A DNA stretch of 50,457 bases from Actinomycetota bacterium (GTDB lineage Bacteria; Actinomycetota; Acidimicrobiia; Spongiisociales; UBA5794), in NCBI GenBank assembly GCA_013151445.1, contig JAADIG010000154.1, positions 1-50,457 on the forward strand, written 5' to 3'. The notes beneath the pieces were generated by a model. It did no database searches. It saw nothing but the letters and a program-made list of their open reading frames with translations, and was not told the DNA's origin. Positions within the stretch are counted from its first letter, which is position 1; every line of letters starts with the position of its first letter. Below, piece by piece: positions 18,460-25,822 of this stretch. The translations under genes were made by a program, and so were the position numbers.

Positions 18460-19176
18460 CTACTTGGTGGATTCCCAGGGTCGTGTCGCTAGAAGGGCGG
18501 CGCCACCGAGAACGAGTGCGCCGACAAGACTGAAAAGCACGACCGCTCCGACCTTTGACGATGCGAGGAGCAGCCGCGAGAGGCCGAATGCGACAGCCGC
18601 TGCGGTGACACCGGCAATGATGGGCCATCCGATGGCGCGTCCGGTTTCGCGCAGGAACCCGGCGGTCGTTAGCGGTACCGCAGATCCGGTGAACCCGACC
18701 GCATGGGGGTGCGAGATAGTGTTTGCGAACATCGCAATCATGGCCCCCACGATGCCGCCGGTCACGACAGCGATGAGTGCCATTCGTAGTATCGGGATCG
18801 TGACGTTGCCACCGTCGATTTCGCCAGCGAGGGCGAGCAGTCCCCGGGTGATCGGGAAACCGACGGCTGCGCCAAGTACTGCCCCAACACTTGCAACATA
18901 CCGGGCCGGGTAACGCTCCCTTGCTGGGTCGGACCGTGTGCCGGCCGCATACCCGACGAGGGCCATCGCGGCACCTCCGACAAGGCCGATGACGAGAAGT
19001 GCGAGAAAAAGTGCGCCGTGGGTCACCACGATGGTGGTGCCACCTGGTGTACCCAACGCAGCGGTTTCGATCGAGGACATCGCCGTCAAGGGTCCAAACA
19101 ACGCAAACGCACCGAGACCAAAGAGAGCACCCGCTACAACGCCGTATCCGGCGACTCTCGTTCCGTTTGCTTGCAT
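18460..19176 (-). CDS. Polytopic membrane protein of unknown function
   Basis: A 238-residue protein rich in Gly, Ala and Val with about six hydrophobic helices and no catalytic motif I can recognise. The sequence FGLGAFALFGPLTAM and GALLGxxxGFPITRG-type segments give it the look of a small-molecule permease or a structural membrane protein. It follows the LCP cluster on the same strand, with a hairpin between, so it may be a separate unit. Confidence 0.75.
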   Translation of the reverse strand: MQANGTRVAGYGVVAGALFGLGAFALFGPLTAMSSIETAALGTPGGTTIVVTHGALFLALLVIGLVGGAAMALVGYAAGTRSDPARERYPARYVASVGAVLGAAVGFPITRGLLALAGEIDGGNVTIPILRMALIAVVTGGIVGAMIAMFANTISHPHAVGFTGSAVPLTTAGFLRETGRAIGWPIIAGVTAAAVAFGLSRLLLASSKVGAVVLFSLVGALVLGGAALLATRPWESTK

Positions 19177-19303: not shown

Positions 19304-20218
19304 TTACGTCTTGCAGACATCGGGGGAGTAGATCCCCCGGACGATGCCAGTGTCTGCGATTGACGTCAATGGACCCCACAGGAGGAGGTCGCCGCTGTTC
19401 TTGGAGAGCAACCGGAACACGGTTGCACCCGTGTTCGGGTCCAACTCCTTGCGGAGGTCGAACGATGACTTGTAGATTCGGTCGAGATCGGACACACGAT
19501 CCGACAGCGCCAACCCGGACAGTGTCTTGAGTTGGGACCCGGGTGCGTCGGCGGATCCCTCAAATTTTAGGTCGAGGCGATAACCGACGAATTTTGCGTC
19601 CGACCCTTCGCCGCGAGCTACCGCCTTGAACGTACCCCATTGGACGATGCGTTCGGTGTCGCCCACACAAACACCGTACCCCCCAATGGATGCCGTTGGA
19701 CCGGTGTCGTCGTCGGGTGCACCTAAACTTGCGACCAGGCGGCCAAACGCTTGATCTGCGGGTACTCCGAACTCAATGGGCCCGATTCCGTTGGTCTGCA
19801 ACGTGAGTTCGGAGACCGGGATTGCCTCTCCGACCGGTGTGATGCCACCTGCCGTGGGATCAACGGGCGTTGTGGTGCTGCCCGCGGCGGTATCGGGCAC
19901 CGTGGTCGACGTTGTTCCGTCACCCGGCGTTTGTGTGTTATCCCCGGGTGTCGCGGTGGTCGTCGTCGTGTTTGTCGGTGCGGCAACGTTGTCGTTCCCT
20001 CCACCGATCAGTTTGACTGTGGCCAGGCTCAACGCGACGAGGAGAAGGCCAACGATCAGGCCGGTGAGCGCGGGGGCTCGAGGTGGTGTCGCCGCGGGGA
20101 CGTCCGAGTCCTCAAGGTCCGGCACCGTATCGGAGCTGGACAGATCAGAGAGCCCGTCATACGGGTCAAAGAGCCCGTCATACAGGTCGTCTGGGCCGTC
20201 ATCAAACTTGTCGCTCAC
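19304..20218 (-). CDS. Membrane protein with LCP-cluster extracellular domain (paralogue 2)
   Basis: A 304-residue protein: acidic cytoplasmic N-terminus (1-45) with three YDGL-like repeats, one membrane helix (about 50-71), a Thr/Pro linker rich in TTTT (75-130), and an extracellular domain (about 134-304). This domain is homologous by eye to the C-terminal domain of 22231-23775. Shared marks are GPxxFG, GRLxAxxGxPD, a G-C pair, the FVGYR segment, LxTLSG, FRLLS, LLLxGP and the ending GIYSxDxC. Two cysteines (about 184 and 302) are conserved between the copies and could form a disulfide. No known family is recognised beyond a loose likeness to small actinobacterial exported domains. GTG 20218 has GGAAG seven bases upstream; GTG 20239 is possible. 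It lies 84 bases after the LCP fusion gene. Confidence 0.82.
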   Translation of the reverse strand: MSDKFDDGPDDLYDGLFDPYDGLSDLSSSDTVPDLEDSDVPAATPPRAPALTGLIVGLLLVALSLATVKLIGGGNDNVAAPTNTTTTTATPGDNTQTPGDGTTSTTVPDTAAGSTTTPVDPTAGGITPVGEAIPVSELTLQTNGIGPIEFGVPADQAFGRLVASLGAPDDDTGPTASIGGYGVCVGDTERIVQWGTFKAVARGEGSDAKFVGYRLDLKFEGSADAPGSQLKTLSGLALSDRVSDLDRIYKSSFDLRKELDPNTGATVFRLLSKNSGDLLLWGPLTSIADTGIVRGIYSPDVCKT

Positions 20219-20302
20219 AGGGTCACTTCCGTTGCACACGGGGGCAGTGTGTCACCGGCATTGTATGCGGGTCGCCGCCACAAGCACAGCCTTTCGTTCC
20301 CG

Positions 20303-22234
20303 CTATGACAACGCCTTTGAGATTCGGTCGGGGTACGCCTCGTTAAGGATGTCTTCGAACGAGCGGGTGGGCAGCAGTACGTATTTGACGGTGCCGTCCG
20401 GGTTCTCGACTGTGTAGTCCTTTACCGGAATGGAAAGGCGGTGGATTTCGTCCAGGTTTGTTGAGCGGAAACCCCAGGCGAGCCGCACCGCATCGGGGAG
20501 GCTGAGCTGGTCGTCGAGAGTGAAGGCGTTGGAGAGGCCTCTCACTGTTCCCATCAGCTCGGACACCGAACTGAAGTTCTTGGCCTTCGAGAATAGCGCC
20601 AGGACCATCTCCTGCTGGCGTTGGTTTCGGGTGAGGTCGGTGACCCCCGGCATGATGCGCCACCGGCCATTTACTAGTTCCTGCGTGGTCCGTGATCGGA
20701 CCCATGCAAGTGCCTGGTCCCCCGAGGCGAGTGTGCAGCCGCCGGGGAGATTGAGGTCGGCCTTGCGGTCACGAACCGGGTACTCCGTACAGATCTCGAT
20801 GCCACCAAGCTCATCCACGATTTCCTCGAACCCCGCGAAGGTGAAGAGGGCAAAGTGGTCCACGGGTATTCCCGTGAAGTCGGACACCGTGAGGGCGAGC
20901 AACGTGGGTCCGTTGATCTCATCGCGGCACCCAAAGAAGGTCACGTTGATACGGGTGTAGTTCTGTCGACAACGGTTCGGGAGGTAGAGATCGCGGGGGA
21001 GCGAGACCATGGCCGGGGTCGAGCCGTCGTTCGGATCAAGCAGCAGGACGACGACATCGGCCCGCTTCTCGCTCTCGTCGGTTCCAACGATGAGATAGGT
21101 CGTGAATTCGCTGGAATCGGCTGGCGGGGATGAAACCGGGGGTATCACTACTTCATCAAACTCGGGCAGTTCCAGTGCGTCTGCCGGGAGTGGTTCCAGA
21201 AGATCTGCGGCTGCGGCGAGGTCGTTCACGACCGTTTGACGGCCGCTCCAGGTGCGCAATGCTTGATATCCCGTCCAGGCGCTGAACCCAGCGAGAATCA
21301 GCAGCCCCGTGGCGACAGACCGTAGCGCCATGCCCCGCCAGGTCACTCGACCCGATGGTCTGCGTGCCGATCGGGAAATGTAACCAACGATTGGTGCCCC
21401 GCTGTCCCGGTGTGCGGTAGCGGCATTCTCCAGGGCCTGGGCGGTGGTGTGCTCATTGATGACGAGGATCGTCCCGTCGGCATGGGCACCGATGCCGGTG
21501 TCGACGTGTGACCAGAACGCCGGAGGTACGTCGACGAGGATCAGGTCGGTGCCGTCGGCGATCTGATCCAGGGCGGAGGCGACAGTGGCCGATCCGAGGA
21601 TGGTTTCGTCGTCACCGATCTCCCCGGCGGGGACCATCGGTAGGCGTTTGGTGGGACCGACGGCCCACAGCCGGGCCGATCGTGCAAGATCGGATTCTCC
21701 GCGAGCTAACTCGGCGAGTCCGGGTGAGGAACCGGTGTGGACAAAACGCGAGAGGCCACGCTGGGACATGTCTCCGTCAACAAGGATCACCCTGCGGTTA
21801 TCGAGAGTCATGGCAAATGCGAGGTTCATCGCAACGGTGCTTGATCCGATCCCGGGGGACACACCGGCGATCTGGAGAATCTGCCCGGTCGTTTCAGCCT
21901 CGACCCGACGGGCGATGTCGCGGTACTCGGCCGCTGCAGAACTTTCCGGGTCGACGAGGGTTGGGCTGGGCGAATCGGTGTACGCCGAAATGTTTCCGAG
22001 GTGCACCGTTCCTGCCACCGGAGCCAGCCGTCGCGCCTGGTACCGACGTGCGAGGATGAGCCAACCGAGCCCGGCTACCAGTCCTGAGGTAGCTCCCGTA
22101 ACCATCATTGCGGTAGGCGTGCTCCATGTCGCGGTGACGATGCCGAAGAGTACGATCGCGGCGATCAATGGAAGCAGGGTTCGTACGGTGAAGAATCGAC
22201 GGGATCGGCGGCGGCGGCGCTTGAATAACTTCAT
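20303..22234 (-). CDS. Fusion of degenerate BY-kinase-like ATPase and LCP phosphotransferase
   Basis: A 643-residue membrane protein. Two helices (about 18-36 and 45-62) precede a cytoplasmic P-loop domain (about 95-290) of the CpsD/Wzc BY-kinase type: it has an A' motif VILVDGDMS (D153) and LILVDVPP (D235). The Walker A loop reads GVSPGIGSST (124-133), with serine 131 where the catalytic lysine should be, and there is no C-terminal Tyr cluster. A third helix (about 303-325) crosses the membrane. Residues 377-550 are an LCP (LytR-CpsA-Psr) domain with R391/D393, SLPRD (R414, D415) and DLTRNQRQQ (R536, R539). LCP enzymes move glycopolymers from lipid carrier to cell wall. The ATG overlaps the upstream stop as ATGA. 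Confidence 0.9.
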   Translation of the reverse strand: MKLFKRRRRRSRRFFTVRTLLPLIAAIVLFGIVTATWSTPTAMMVTGATSGLVAGLGWLILARRYQARRLAPVAGTVHLGNISAYTDSPSPTLVDPESSAAAEYRDIARRVEAETTGQILQIAGVSPGIGSSTVAMNLAFAMTLDNRRVILVDGDMSQRGLSRFVHTGSSPGLAELARGESDLARSARLWAVGPTKRLPMVPAGEIGDDETILGSATVASALDQIADGTDLILVDVPPAFWSHVDTGIGAHADGTILVINEHTTAQALENAATAHRDSGAPIVGYISRSARRPSGRVTWRGMALRSVATGLLILAGFSAWTGYQALRTWSGRQTVVNDLAAAADLLEPLPADALELPEFDEVVIPPVSSPPADSSEFTTYLIVGTDESEKRADVVVLLLDPNDGSTPAMVSLPRDLYLPNRCRQNYTRINVTFFGCRDEINGPTLLALTVSDFTGIPVDHFALFTFAGFEEIVDELGGIEICTEYPVRDRKADLNLPGGCTLASGDQALAWVRSRTTQELVNGRWRIMPGVTDLTRNQRQQEMVLALFSKAKNFSSVSELMGTVRGLSNAFTLDDQLSLPDAVRLAWGFRSTNLDEIHRLSIPVKDYTVENPDGTVKYVLLPTRSFEDILNEAYPDRISKALS

Positions 22235-23775
22235 GCGCTACACGCATCCCTCGAGTAGATACCCAGTATCGATCCATCATCGGCCTGTACCGATATTGGG
22301 CCATAGAGCAGTAGGCGTTGTGTGCCCGAGCGCAGCAGTCTGAAATACGGCTGACCATCAAGCTCGAAAAGCTCGATGGTCGAGTTCGCATAGATCTGGC
22401 GCAGTGTCGTGATGGTGTCCCCGATTGAGATCCCCGACAGTGTCGCGAGGTCCCCACCGGGATCCCCGTCGTCGATTCCCGTTGCGTCTCCGATGCGATA
22501 CCCAACAAACTCCGAGGTGCCGTCAACGTCGCGGAAGATCGCGGCGATTCCTCCCCAGGTGGCGACACTGCCGCTATCGGTGGCGCACAGACCCCAGGTC
22601 GTGTCTGCGGGTCCCAGTGAGTCGGGTTGGCCAAACGTTGCTGTGAGACGGCCAAGGACCTGCTCACCATTGCTCCCAAACGAGAATGGGCCAAACGCAA
22701 AGCCCCCCATCGTTAGCTCGCTGAGGGCGATGGGTGACCCGATGGCCGTCACCGGGGCGATGGTCGTGGTTGGGGGTGCAAGAGTTGTGGTTGATGGCGG
22801 GGTTGAACTGGTCGGTGGTGCCGCCGTGGTTGTGGTCTCCGGCGGCACCACGGTTGATTGTGCAACAACAGTCGTCGGCGGCGGGAATGTGGCATTGGGG
22901 CGAAACCAAGAGAGCCAAGCAATGACCCCAAGCGCCGCAACAGCGACCAGGCCGAGCGGAATCCTGGATCGTCGCTCCTTCGTTTCGTACGGTGTGTGGA
23001 TCGGCGTCATGGTGACCTCGGTCGCCACGCTCGACGAGGTCACCGTTGTTGGCCCATCGTCGTCCCAGTCGTCCTCTACGTCGTCGTCGGTGTCGTCCTC
23101 TACGTCGTCGTCTTGGTCGACGGGTTCATCCCAGTCGTTATCGCTGTCGTCGTGGTCGGCGTCTTCGTCCCACGTGTCTTGGACGTCGTCGTCGTCGCTG
23201 TCGTCGTCTTGGTCGACGGGTTCGTCCCAGTCGTTCTCGCTGTCGTCGTGGTCGGCGTCTTCGCTCCACGTGTCTTGGACGTCGTCGTCGCTGTCGTCGT
23301 CGCTGTCGTCGTCTTGGTCGACGGGTTCGTCCCAGTCGTTGTCGCTGTCGTCGTGGTCGGTGTCTTCGTCCCACGTGTCTTGGATGTCGTCGTCGGTGTC
23401 GTCGTCTTGGTCGACGGGTTCGTCCCAGTCGTTATCGCTGTCGTCGTGGTCGGTGTCTTCGTCCCACGTGTCTTGGATGTCGTCACCATCAATCGGCAGG
23501 GCCGCGGCCGCACCAGGTACCGAATCCTTGCCCACGGAGGTGTCTTTCCATCCAGGGTCCGCCACCGGCGATTCAGCCGAATCGGACGATCCATCGACCA
23601 ACTCGTCCGCAAGGTCGTCGAGGACATCGTCGACGTCGTGGAGATGCGCCGGTTCGGGTGGTGGTGGCGTGACGTACTCGTCGATCCAAGCCTCGCCGCA
23701 GGATCCACACACGGCATCAGAGGGGCTCCGGAGGGCTCCACAGAATATGCACGGGGTTCTACTGTCGTCTGTCAC
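22231..23775 (-). CDS. Zinc-ribbon, acidic-repeat membrane protein with LCP-cluster extracellular domain (paralogue 1)
   Basis: A 514-residue protein. The N-terminus has a CxxC...CxxC zinc ribbon (C9, C12, C23, C26). Residues about 97-238 are extremely acidic and hold four tandem units of 31-35 residues (core DDSDNDWDEPVDQDDD). One membrane helix (about 272-291) lies after an Arg/Lys patch, so the acidic part is predicted cytoplasmic. A Pro/Thr linker leads to an extracellular domain (about 348-514) that is homologous to that of 19304-20218. The start is placed at GTG 23775, 28 bases after the preceding stop; an upstream in-frame start at 23841 would overlap that gene. The stop overlaps the LCP fusion ATG (ATGA), so the pair is co-translated. 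Function unknown; a scaffold or regulator of the fusion protein is inferred. Confidence 0.85.
   Translation of the reverse strand: MTDDSRTPCIFCGALRSPSDAVCGSCGEAWIDEYVTPPPPEPAHLHDVDDVLDDLADELVDGSSDSAESPVADPGWKDTSVGKDSVPGAAAALPIDGDDIQDTWDEDTDHDDSDNDWDEPVDQDDDTDDDIQDTWDEDTDHDDSDNDWDEPVDQDDDSDDDSDDDVQDTWSEDADHDDSENDWDEPVDQDDDSDDDDVQDTWDEDADHDDSDNDWDEPVDQDDDVEDDTDDDVEDDWDDDGPTTVTSSSVATEVTMTPIHTPYETKERRSRIPLGLVAVAALGVIAWLSWFRPNATFPPPTTVVAQSTVVPPETTTTAAPPTSSTPPSTTTLAPPTTTIAPVTAIGSPIALSELTMGGFAFGPFSFGSNGEQVLGRLTATFGQPDSLGPADTTWGLCATDSGSVATWGGIAAIFRDVDGTSEFVGYRIGDATGIDDGDPGGDLATLSGISIGDTITTLRQIYANSTIELFELDGQPYFRLLRSGTQRLLLYGPISVQADDGSILGIYSRDACSA
23103..23490. repeat. Four in-frame tandem repeats coding Asp-rich units
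   Basis: A TTGGTCGACGGGTTC core recurs at 23113, 23209, 23314 and 23407, giving periods of 96, 105 and 93 bases. All are multiples of three, so copy number can change without breaking the frame. Units differ mainly in the number of short GTC/GTCGTC steps between cores. The array lies inside the coding region of 22231-23775. Confidence 0.9.
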
Positions 23776-23803
23776 AGCGCATAAGGATACGGTGCGCCGA
23801 CGG

Positions 23804-25822
23804 TTATCCGCTGGCTTTCGGCAGACTCGCCTCAAGAACACGAATCAAGTCGTCTGTGTCCGACACCGGTAGGTCACAAACAAAGTCGTGGCAGAGGAAC
23901 GCTTGTGCCGATTCCGGCGGCGGCGGTCTGTCGGCAAACAGAGGGAGATCGCTGACCGACGAGGATGCTCCGGTCACGATCCATGGTCGAAATCTGCCAA
24001 GAACGGCCGCCACCATCTTGTCGACAGCGTCATCGGTGCCAACAATCGCAAGCTGTGCCGTCTCGTTGCCGAAGCCGATTCCGACCGCAAGCGCCCCCGC
24101 AATGGCGGTGGGATACGATTGCACCATCGGTCCAAGCGATGCCCAGATACCCGACCGTGCCCCGCGGTAACGCTCGTCTCCGGTGAGAGCGTGGGCGATG
24201 GTGAGAGCCTTGAGTGCCAGCGTCTGTGGCGAGGGTGTTGGATTGTCAAAAAGCGGCTTCTGGCGTGTGATCAGTTGCTCGGCATCATGAGCGGTTCGAA
24301 ATACACCGGCGTTTTGATCCGCAAACCGGTCGATAAGATCGTCGACGAGGGTTATGCCTCGCTGGGCATACGTCGGATCGTGGGTCGCAACTCCGAGGCT
24401 GAACAGCCCACAGGCATACGCCCCGTAGTCCTCCGCAAAACCGGGGCCAGACGTTGCATCGGCGCGCCCCGACCGGTGCAGCACGCCGTCCACCATGAGT
24501 TTGCTGGTGATGAACTGGTCGATTTCGCGGGCTGCAGCGATGTAGCGATCTACCCCAAACGCACTACCCACTTCGGCGAGAGCGCTTATCGCCAACCCGT
24601 TCCATTCGGTGACGATCTTGTCATCGACACCCGGGCGGACACGATCGTTGCGGGCGTTGCGGAGTTTTTCCTTCATGTCTTGTACGGCGGCTGGATCCTG
24701 AGCCGGCATCCCGTTGGGTAGGAAGAGATGGTTGGAGCCCTCGAAGTTCCCCCCGGCGGAGACACCGAACCACTCCCCGGCGAGCACGACCTCTTCGGGC
24801 GTGAGCAGTATCTCGAGTTCTTCCATTGTCCACACCGCAAACTTGCCTTCGATGCCCTCGGCATCTGCGTCCTCGGAGGACCACAGGGCACCCTGGCTGT
24901 CCCGTAGGTCGTTCAGCAGATAGTCGAGCGTTTCGCAGGCAACCCGACGGAAGGTGTTGTCGCCGGTGATCTGCCAGCCACGCAGATACGCCGTCGCCAG
25001 TAGGGCGTTGTCGTAGAGCATCTTTTCGAAGTGGGGGATGAGCCACTTCTCATCAACCGAGTAGCGCGCAAAACCGCCGTCAATATGGTCGTAGATGCCG
25101 CCAGCCGCCATTGCATGCAGGCTGGTCGAGAGCATGTGGGTTGCCTGGTCACCAATCTCGTCTGTGTGTCTGGATGCGATTGCAGCCAGGAGTTCGAGAA
25201 GTGGTGCCTGGGGAAACTTCGGTGCATGACCAAACCCCCCGTGGACCGTGTCGAATTGGGATGTGAGGGCGCGCATGGCGTGCTCTGCGCTCTCGGCGTT
25301 CACTGTGAAGGGCTCGGTAGGTGTCGCCACCCGGAGTGACTTGACGAGTCTCTCTGCCCGGTCGAATACGCTGGTGCGATCGTCGACCCACAGACGATGA
25401 ATCGAGTCGAGGACCCTCATGAACGACGGATGTCCGTGGCGGTCGGTGGGTGGGAAATACGTCCCGGCGAAGAACGGTCGGCCCTCCGAATCAAGAAACG
25501 CGGTCAGCGGCCATCCTCCCTGCCCCCGCATTGCCTGCAACGCCTCCATGTAGATGCCGTCAATGTCGGGACGTTCCTCTCGGTCGACCTTGATACTCAC
25601 GAAATGTTCGTTCATGAAACGTGCCGTTGTGTCGTCTTCGAAACTCTCGTGCGCCATGACGTGGCACCAATGACAGGCCGCATACCCAATTGACAGGAGG
25701 ATGGGGACATCGCGTTCTCGTGCGAGCGCAAACGCGTCGGGCCCCCACTCGAACCAATCGACGGGATTGTCGGCATGTTGGCGGAGGTACGGCGAGGTTG
25801 CGTTCACGAGGCGATTTGGCAT
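23804..25822 (-). CDS. YyaL/SSP411-family thioredoxin-domain protein (DUF255)
   Basis: A 672-residue protein. Residues 5-170 are the DUF255 thioredoxin-like domain with C50-H-W-C53 ([15 protein letters not shown]) and [24 protein letters not shown] follows. The remainder is an alpha/alpha-barrel of the six-hairpin type, seen in [12 protein letters not shown] and SSEDADAEG. The family is found in all domains and is often annotated as a spermatogenesis-associated or cellobiose-epimerase-like protein; the reaction is unproven. ATG 25822 is preferred over GTG 25831. The LCP cluster begins 28 bases after its stop on the same strand, so it may be the first gene of that operon. Confidence 0.93.

Follow-up and report, generated by a model that had tools for sequence, protein, structure and literature searches.

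A probable BY-pseudokinase fused to an LCP transferase domain in one family of Acidimicrobiia

A single open reading frame in the window, the whole stretch of 50,457 nucleotides that we analysed, encodes both a BY-kinase-like P-loop domain without its Walker A lysine and an LCP glycopolymer transferase domain. The best overall explanation, which we regard as rather probable, is a membrane LCP transferase with a built-in cytoplasmic BY-pseudokinase that has a single origin and likely serves as a scaffold. The features of the gene and its partners are as follows.

22231 to 23841, minus strand: gene A, the directly upstream partner, conserved beside the fusion in family f1, the family of the window genome.
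20303 to 22234, minus strand: the pseudokinase-LCP fusion gene, an open reading frame of 643 amino acids.
22046 to 22192, minus strand: N-terminal membrane hairpin, residues about 15-63, found by hydropathy scan and kept in orthologues.
21359 to 21937, minus strand: BY-kinase-like P-loop domain, residues 100-292, predicted cytoplasmic, from the Wzc match and the fold matches.
21836 to 21862, minus strand: Walker A remnant VSPGIGSST, residues 125-133, with S131 at the lysine position (codon 21842-21844).
21764 to 21787, minus strand: Walker A' motif ILVDGDMS, residues 150-157; DxD in 30/30 copies, the next Arg lost.
21521 to 21544, minus strand: Walker B motif LILVDVPP, residues 231-238; Asp235 in 26/30 copies.
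21263 to 21319, minus strand: third membrane helix, about residues 306-324, from hydropathy and orthologue comparison.
20327 to 21112, minus strand: LCP glycopolymer transferase domain, residues 375-636, from PF03816, TagT and 5v8c matches and alignment.
19304 to 20239, minus strand: gene B, the downstream partner, with one membrane helix and a domain common to gene A.
18460 to 19176, minus strand: multi-spanning membrane protein, syntenic in f1 and the sister family.

The ATG of the fusion gene overlaps the stop codon of gene A (ATGA); judging from this overlap, the two genes are probably translationally coupled. The N-terminus is predicted to be cytoplasmic from hydropathy and the positive charges of a basic KRRRRRSRR stretch that precedes the hairpin. 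The hairpin helices (residues about 15-33 and 43-61) are connected by a short loop, and the Wzz/PCP periplasmic domain expected of a PCP-2a protein is absent. The hydropathy of the third helix is under the threshold in the window protein and over it in many orthologues. The predicted topology runs from the hairpin to a P-loop domain inside the cell, then through helix 3 to an LCP domain outside.

The N-terminal half is related to the bacterial tyrosine kinases. A PDB sequence search matched residues 114-292 to the E. coli Wzc kinase (3la6) with an E-value of 5e-17. The NCBIfam models for Wzc (4e-16) and other tyrosine autokinases matched over residues 95-290; besides the LCP domain described below, Pfam gave a weak AAA_31 match. 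Structural modelling had been proposed in the first-pass annotation as a check. For residues 70-300, AlphaFold2 was run with three distant kinases, and the resulting model (pLDDT 68.5, pTM 0.74) has BY-kinases as its best matches. All top structural matches in Foldseek are known BY-kinases (Wzc, TM 0.81), and the Z-scores against Wzc, CapAB, Etk, BceF and VpsO range from 18.4 to 24.4, with MinD as the next family at 13.5. The model thus points to a BY-kinase fold. A full-length AlphaFold2 model with six distant homologues reached a pLDDT of 43.5 and was discarded.

The nucleotide site of this domain has changed in a consistent manner. The codons at 21847-21836 read GGA TCA AGC ACC (G130, S131, S132 and T133), exactly as first reported in place of the usual GKST. 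We aligned 30 copies of the kinase-like domain, including fused and split copies and one orphan. The lysine position is occupied by Ala in 21, Ser in six and Thr in three of them. The first-pass annotation had proposed to check whether the serine is conserved; the position varies among these three residues, and the lysine in close homologues that would have pointed to a local mutation or sequencing error was found in 0/30 orthologues. The lysine is present in all five nearest true kinases, whose Tyr-rich tail is also retained, and in 23/26 other BY-kinases compared; at this position the 31 related BY-kinases have 28 Lys, two Arg and one Ser. No invariant substitute lysine is present near the Walker A site in the 30-copy alignment. 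The P-loop glycines are retained in 29/30 copies. The A' and B motifs remain, as had been noted (VILVDGD and LILVD), yet the Arg of the A' motif (DxDxR) is mostly Ser or Thr across the 30 copies; this Arg is also missing from many of the other 26 BY-kinases. The Walker B Asp is found in 26/30 copies, including the window protein; genus g10 has Asn. In the EX2RX2R oligomerisation motif the Glu position is D, A, Q or N and the second Arg is absent, and a Wzc-like octameric ring is therefore unsupported. Conservation of W190 (26/30) and H251 (28/30) is mainly limited to the fusion clade.

The reported replacement of the C-terminal Tyr cluster by a membrane helix and the LCP domain also stands: the nearest relatives, with six to eight Tyr, end in GYGYGYGY, and the fusion protein goes on from there into helix 3 and the LCP domain. 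BY-pseudokinases have been defined by the BY-kinase fold without the catalytic residues and the Tyr tail (PMC12004946), and this is the combination found in the inner domain. Reading it as a kinase is probably wrong; with Lys, A' Arg and Tyr tail missing, a pseudokinase fits better.

Three separate Wzz-BY-kinases from the same order (L159, L176 and L178) also lack the Walker A lysine (GRST, GRT and GST), indicating that lysine loss occurred more than once. The window genome itself encodes a Wzz-BY-kinase (L075/L150, G000 contig C87) that has SEGKT and lacks the Tyr tail, another possible non-canonical co-polymerase.

The C-terminal half is a well-supported LCP domain. PF03816 matches residues 391-552 with an E-value of 3.5e-26 (92.6 bits, curated cut-off 24.6), and LCP structures match this half at 3e-17 in the PDB sequence search. 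Together with the Wzc match, this bears out the earlier assignment of a BY-kinase-like and an LCP domain to one chain. The 25 fused orthologues compared share D393, R414-D415, R513-x-R515, D533, R536 and Q540-Q541 without exception, and these residues align with TagT. In A. oris LcpA and in TagT, active-site arginines are catalytic (PMC6381275). Because the Arg and Asp residues of the fusion are invariant and aligned with TagT, transferase activity is probable for the LCP half. Cysteines 422, 436, 482 and 500 are also invariant in the LCP domain, and we infer that they probably form two disulphides.

The fusion is widespread in one family. A search for it across genomes, which the first-pass annotation had suggested, found a single frame spanning both halves in 36 of 50 genomes of family f1, from 16 genera; a few of the 36 frames are cut by contig ends. 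The fused orthologues are 39-74% identical. Outside f1, no fusion was found in 395 genomes of the class and 396 of the phylum with strict thresholds and the top candidates per genome. One further candidate, an 819-aa open frame in G464, has no kinase sequence upstream of its LCP domain and was rejected. In close pairs, dN/dS of the kinase-like domain is 0.05-0.15, about equal to that of the LCP domain. The kinase-like domain is maintained by purifying selection and is not decaying.

The phylogenies trace the fusion to a single event. In the kinase tree, all 30 copies group together as a clade (100/100) with a long stem. Its sister (93/88) consists of two proteins from family f8, both complete PCP-2a kinases with a Wzz-type region, GDGKT and a GYGYGYGY tail. 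In the LCP tree, a branch (SH-aLRT 83) has the f1 LCPs together on a single side, close to the LCPs of the syntenic f8 locus. The placements in the two trees indicate one fusion event at the base of the family. It had been noted that separate halves in related strains would speak against the fusion. Three genomes of genus g8 (G009, G026 and G072) do carry the halves as two adjacent genes. These gene pairs are nested inside the fused clade, however, and are therefore secondary fissions; a fourth genome of this genus, G034, has a fused copy. The hairpin has moved to the LCP gene in G026 and is found in both genes in G009. G015 has a lone, degenerate pseudokinase between genes A and B (L052 3725-4603), in which KPTTESAEVA replaces the P-loop, the Walker B Asp is lost and the membrane hairpin is absent. 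It is a remnant after loss of the LCP half, and the LCP on another contig of G015 belongs to a different lineage. The three split genomes and G015 indicate that covalent linkage is not indispensable.

The neighbouring genes suggest where the kinase-like domain entered. In family f8, from the same order, the syntenic locus reads HerA-sigma-DsbH-LCP-B-membrane protein-CtaG-COX; its LCP is a single-helix protein of about 370 aa, and the kinase and gene A are both absent. In f1, gene A and the kinase-like domain sit between DsbH and LCP, with the kinase-like domain joined to LCP. The product of gene A has a Cys4 motif (CIFC...CGSC) at its N-terminus, followed by an acidic array of tandem repeats, 93-96 bp each (DDDIQDTWDEDTDHDDSDNDWDEPVDQ), by a single membrane helix and by an extracytoplasmic domain. 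This last domain is common to A and B (38% identity, 5e-31) and has no Pfam match. Gene B adjoins the LCP gene also in the sister family without the kinase, so its product may be an LCP accessory. The identified neighbours (cytochrome oxidase, CtaG, DsbH, sigma factor and HerA-like) are not polymer-synthesis genes, and no PCP-2 gene was recognised at the fusion locus. The DsbH protein of the locus has a thioredoxin fold (DUF255/DsbH).

Our best reading of the course of events is as follows. In the ancestor of f1, a Tyr-tailed PCP-2a kinase of the Wzc type lost its large periplasmic domain, the catalytic lysine and the Tyr tail. The gene of the reduced protein was inserted beside an existing LCP gene in a DsbH-LCP-B locus, and the pseudokinase was joined in frame, once, to the LCP N-terminus. 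In the resulting protein, the outer LCP domain, with its catalytic residues retained, is predicted to move a lipid-linked glycopolymer onto the wall or some other acceptor in the envelope. The inner domain would be incapable of ordinary phosphorylation, because the Walker A lysine, the Walker A' Arg and the Tyr substrate are missing. It may bind nucleotide, because the P-loop has kept its glycines and the Mg-binding DxD remains. Most likely it acts as a scaffold through which the LCP enzyme docks with the polymer-synthesis machinery in the cytoplasm or membrane, possibly in a nucleotide-dependent conformation. We favour this scaffold role; nucleotide binding is possible and phosphorylation is unlikely, and we hypothesize that the inner domain regulates LCP activity.

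A different function of the same domain has some appeal, although we consider it doubtful: through lysine-free binding of ATP or ADP, its nucleotide state could gate the LCP enzyme on the other side of the membrane. The nucleotide would be held by the P-loop backbone, S/T132, the DxD and perhaps R147-R148. The P-loop glycines (29/30), the DxD (30/30) and the Walker B Asp (26/30) are consistent with such a site. Structures titled Wzc-K540M MgADP are also among the structural matches of our model and, going by these titles, loss of the Walker A lysine need not abolish nucleotide binding. However, R147-R148 is common in canonical BY-kinase relatives and is thus no special substitute, and genus g10 loses the Walker B Asp, suggesting that nucleotide binding may not be general. 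It is likewise only a tentative idea that this tyrosine-kinase-derived P-loop domain is a nucleotide-responsive cis switch that times or places LCP glycopolymer attachment across the membrane.

Two further roles are less likely than such a switch. The inner domain could be a folded membrane-anchor or stability module for LCP insertion, without a regulatory role. Such a module is compatible with the present data, but LCP orthologues with a single helix and no such domain exist in sister families, so this anchor is unneeded, and the motif-level conservation of the nucleotide site exceeds the needs of an anchor; we judge this role improbable. The domain could also have stayed active as an unusual kinase or ATPase, with another basic residue in the role of the lysine, as in WNK kinases, and with protein targets beyond its own tail. 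The retained Mg ligands and strong purifying selection would suit an active enzyme. Against this, the Walker A Lys, Walker A' Arg and Tyr tail were lost together, the lysine position tolerates A, S and T, and no other Lys nearby has become invariant; continued catalysis is quite unlikely. Finally, the window genome is a fragmented draft assembly (3.07 Mb in 159 contigs), but neither a local mutation nor a sequencing error or assembly chimera can explain the finding, with the fusion in 36 separate assemblies and Lys absent from 30/30 copies.

The scaffold reading can be compared with known systems. The fusion protein is directly related in sequence and in the tree to the PCP-2a autokinases (Wzc/Etk and the Tyr-tailed Wzz-BY-kinases L145 and L146), with which it has in common the hairpin, the BY-kinase fold, the A' DxD and Walker B. 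It differs from them in having an LCP domain and in lacking the Wzz periplasmic domain, the Walker A Lys and the Tyr tail. EcpK of Myxococcus and HfsB of Caulobacter are BY-pseudokinases that were proposed to act as scaffolds for PCP-2 partners without phosphorylation (PMC12004946). Like the inner domain, they combine a BY-kinase fold with the loss of the catalytic residues and the Tyr tail. In EcpK, however, no Walker motif is left, whereas the fusion protein retains most of the nucleotide site, and its pseudokinase is linked to an LCP enzyme. The outer domain resembles TagT/U/V of B. subtilis, LcpC of S. aureus and LcpA of A. oris in its PF03816 match, its Arg and Asp residues and its membrane-anchored, extracytoplasmic position. 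A review of LCP enzymes does not mention a tyrosine kinase or cytoplasmic domain on them (PMC7831098). In the streptococcal and staphylococcal capsule systems, CpsA-CpsB-CpsC-CpsD and CapA1-CapB1/LcpC, an LCP enzyme and a BY-kinase system cooperate, and in S. aureus the kinase activator CapA1 stimulates LcpC (PMC6441080). Unlike the fusion, these capsule systems consist of separate proteins, with an active kinase and a Wzz-domain activator. Our literature searches, which covered few subscription papers, found no published BY-pseudokinase or kinase fused to an LCP enzyme, in agreement with the earlier remark that the layout is without described precedent. The parts are individually known; within the literature searched, the architecture that combines them is new.

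In capsule systems, the kinase or co-polymerase and the LCP transferase are separate, and their coupling is suspected (CapA1-LcpC) but hard to test. A natural single-chain fusion that has persisted in 16 genera provides strong ‘Rosetta stone’ evidence for physical contact of both, and suggests that both machineries operate as a single physical unit. The lysine-free site provides a natural test of a P-loop domain as scaffold versus kinase, and the protein extends BY-pseudokinases to a new class of partner enzyme. If the inner domain does act as a switch in cis, it would tie polymer synthesis to wall attachment within one protein.
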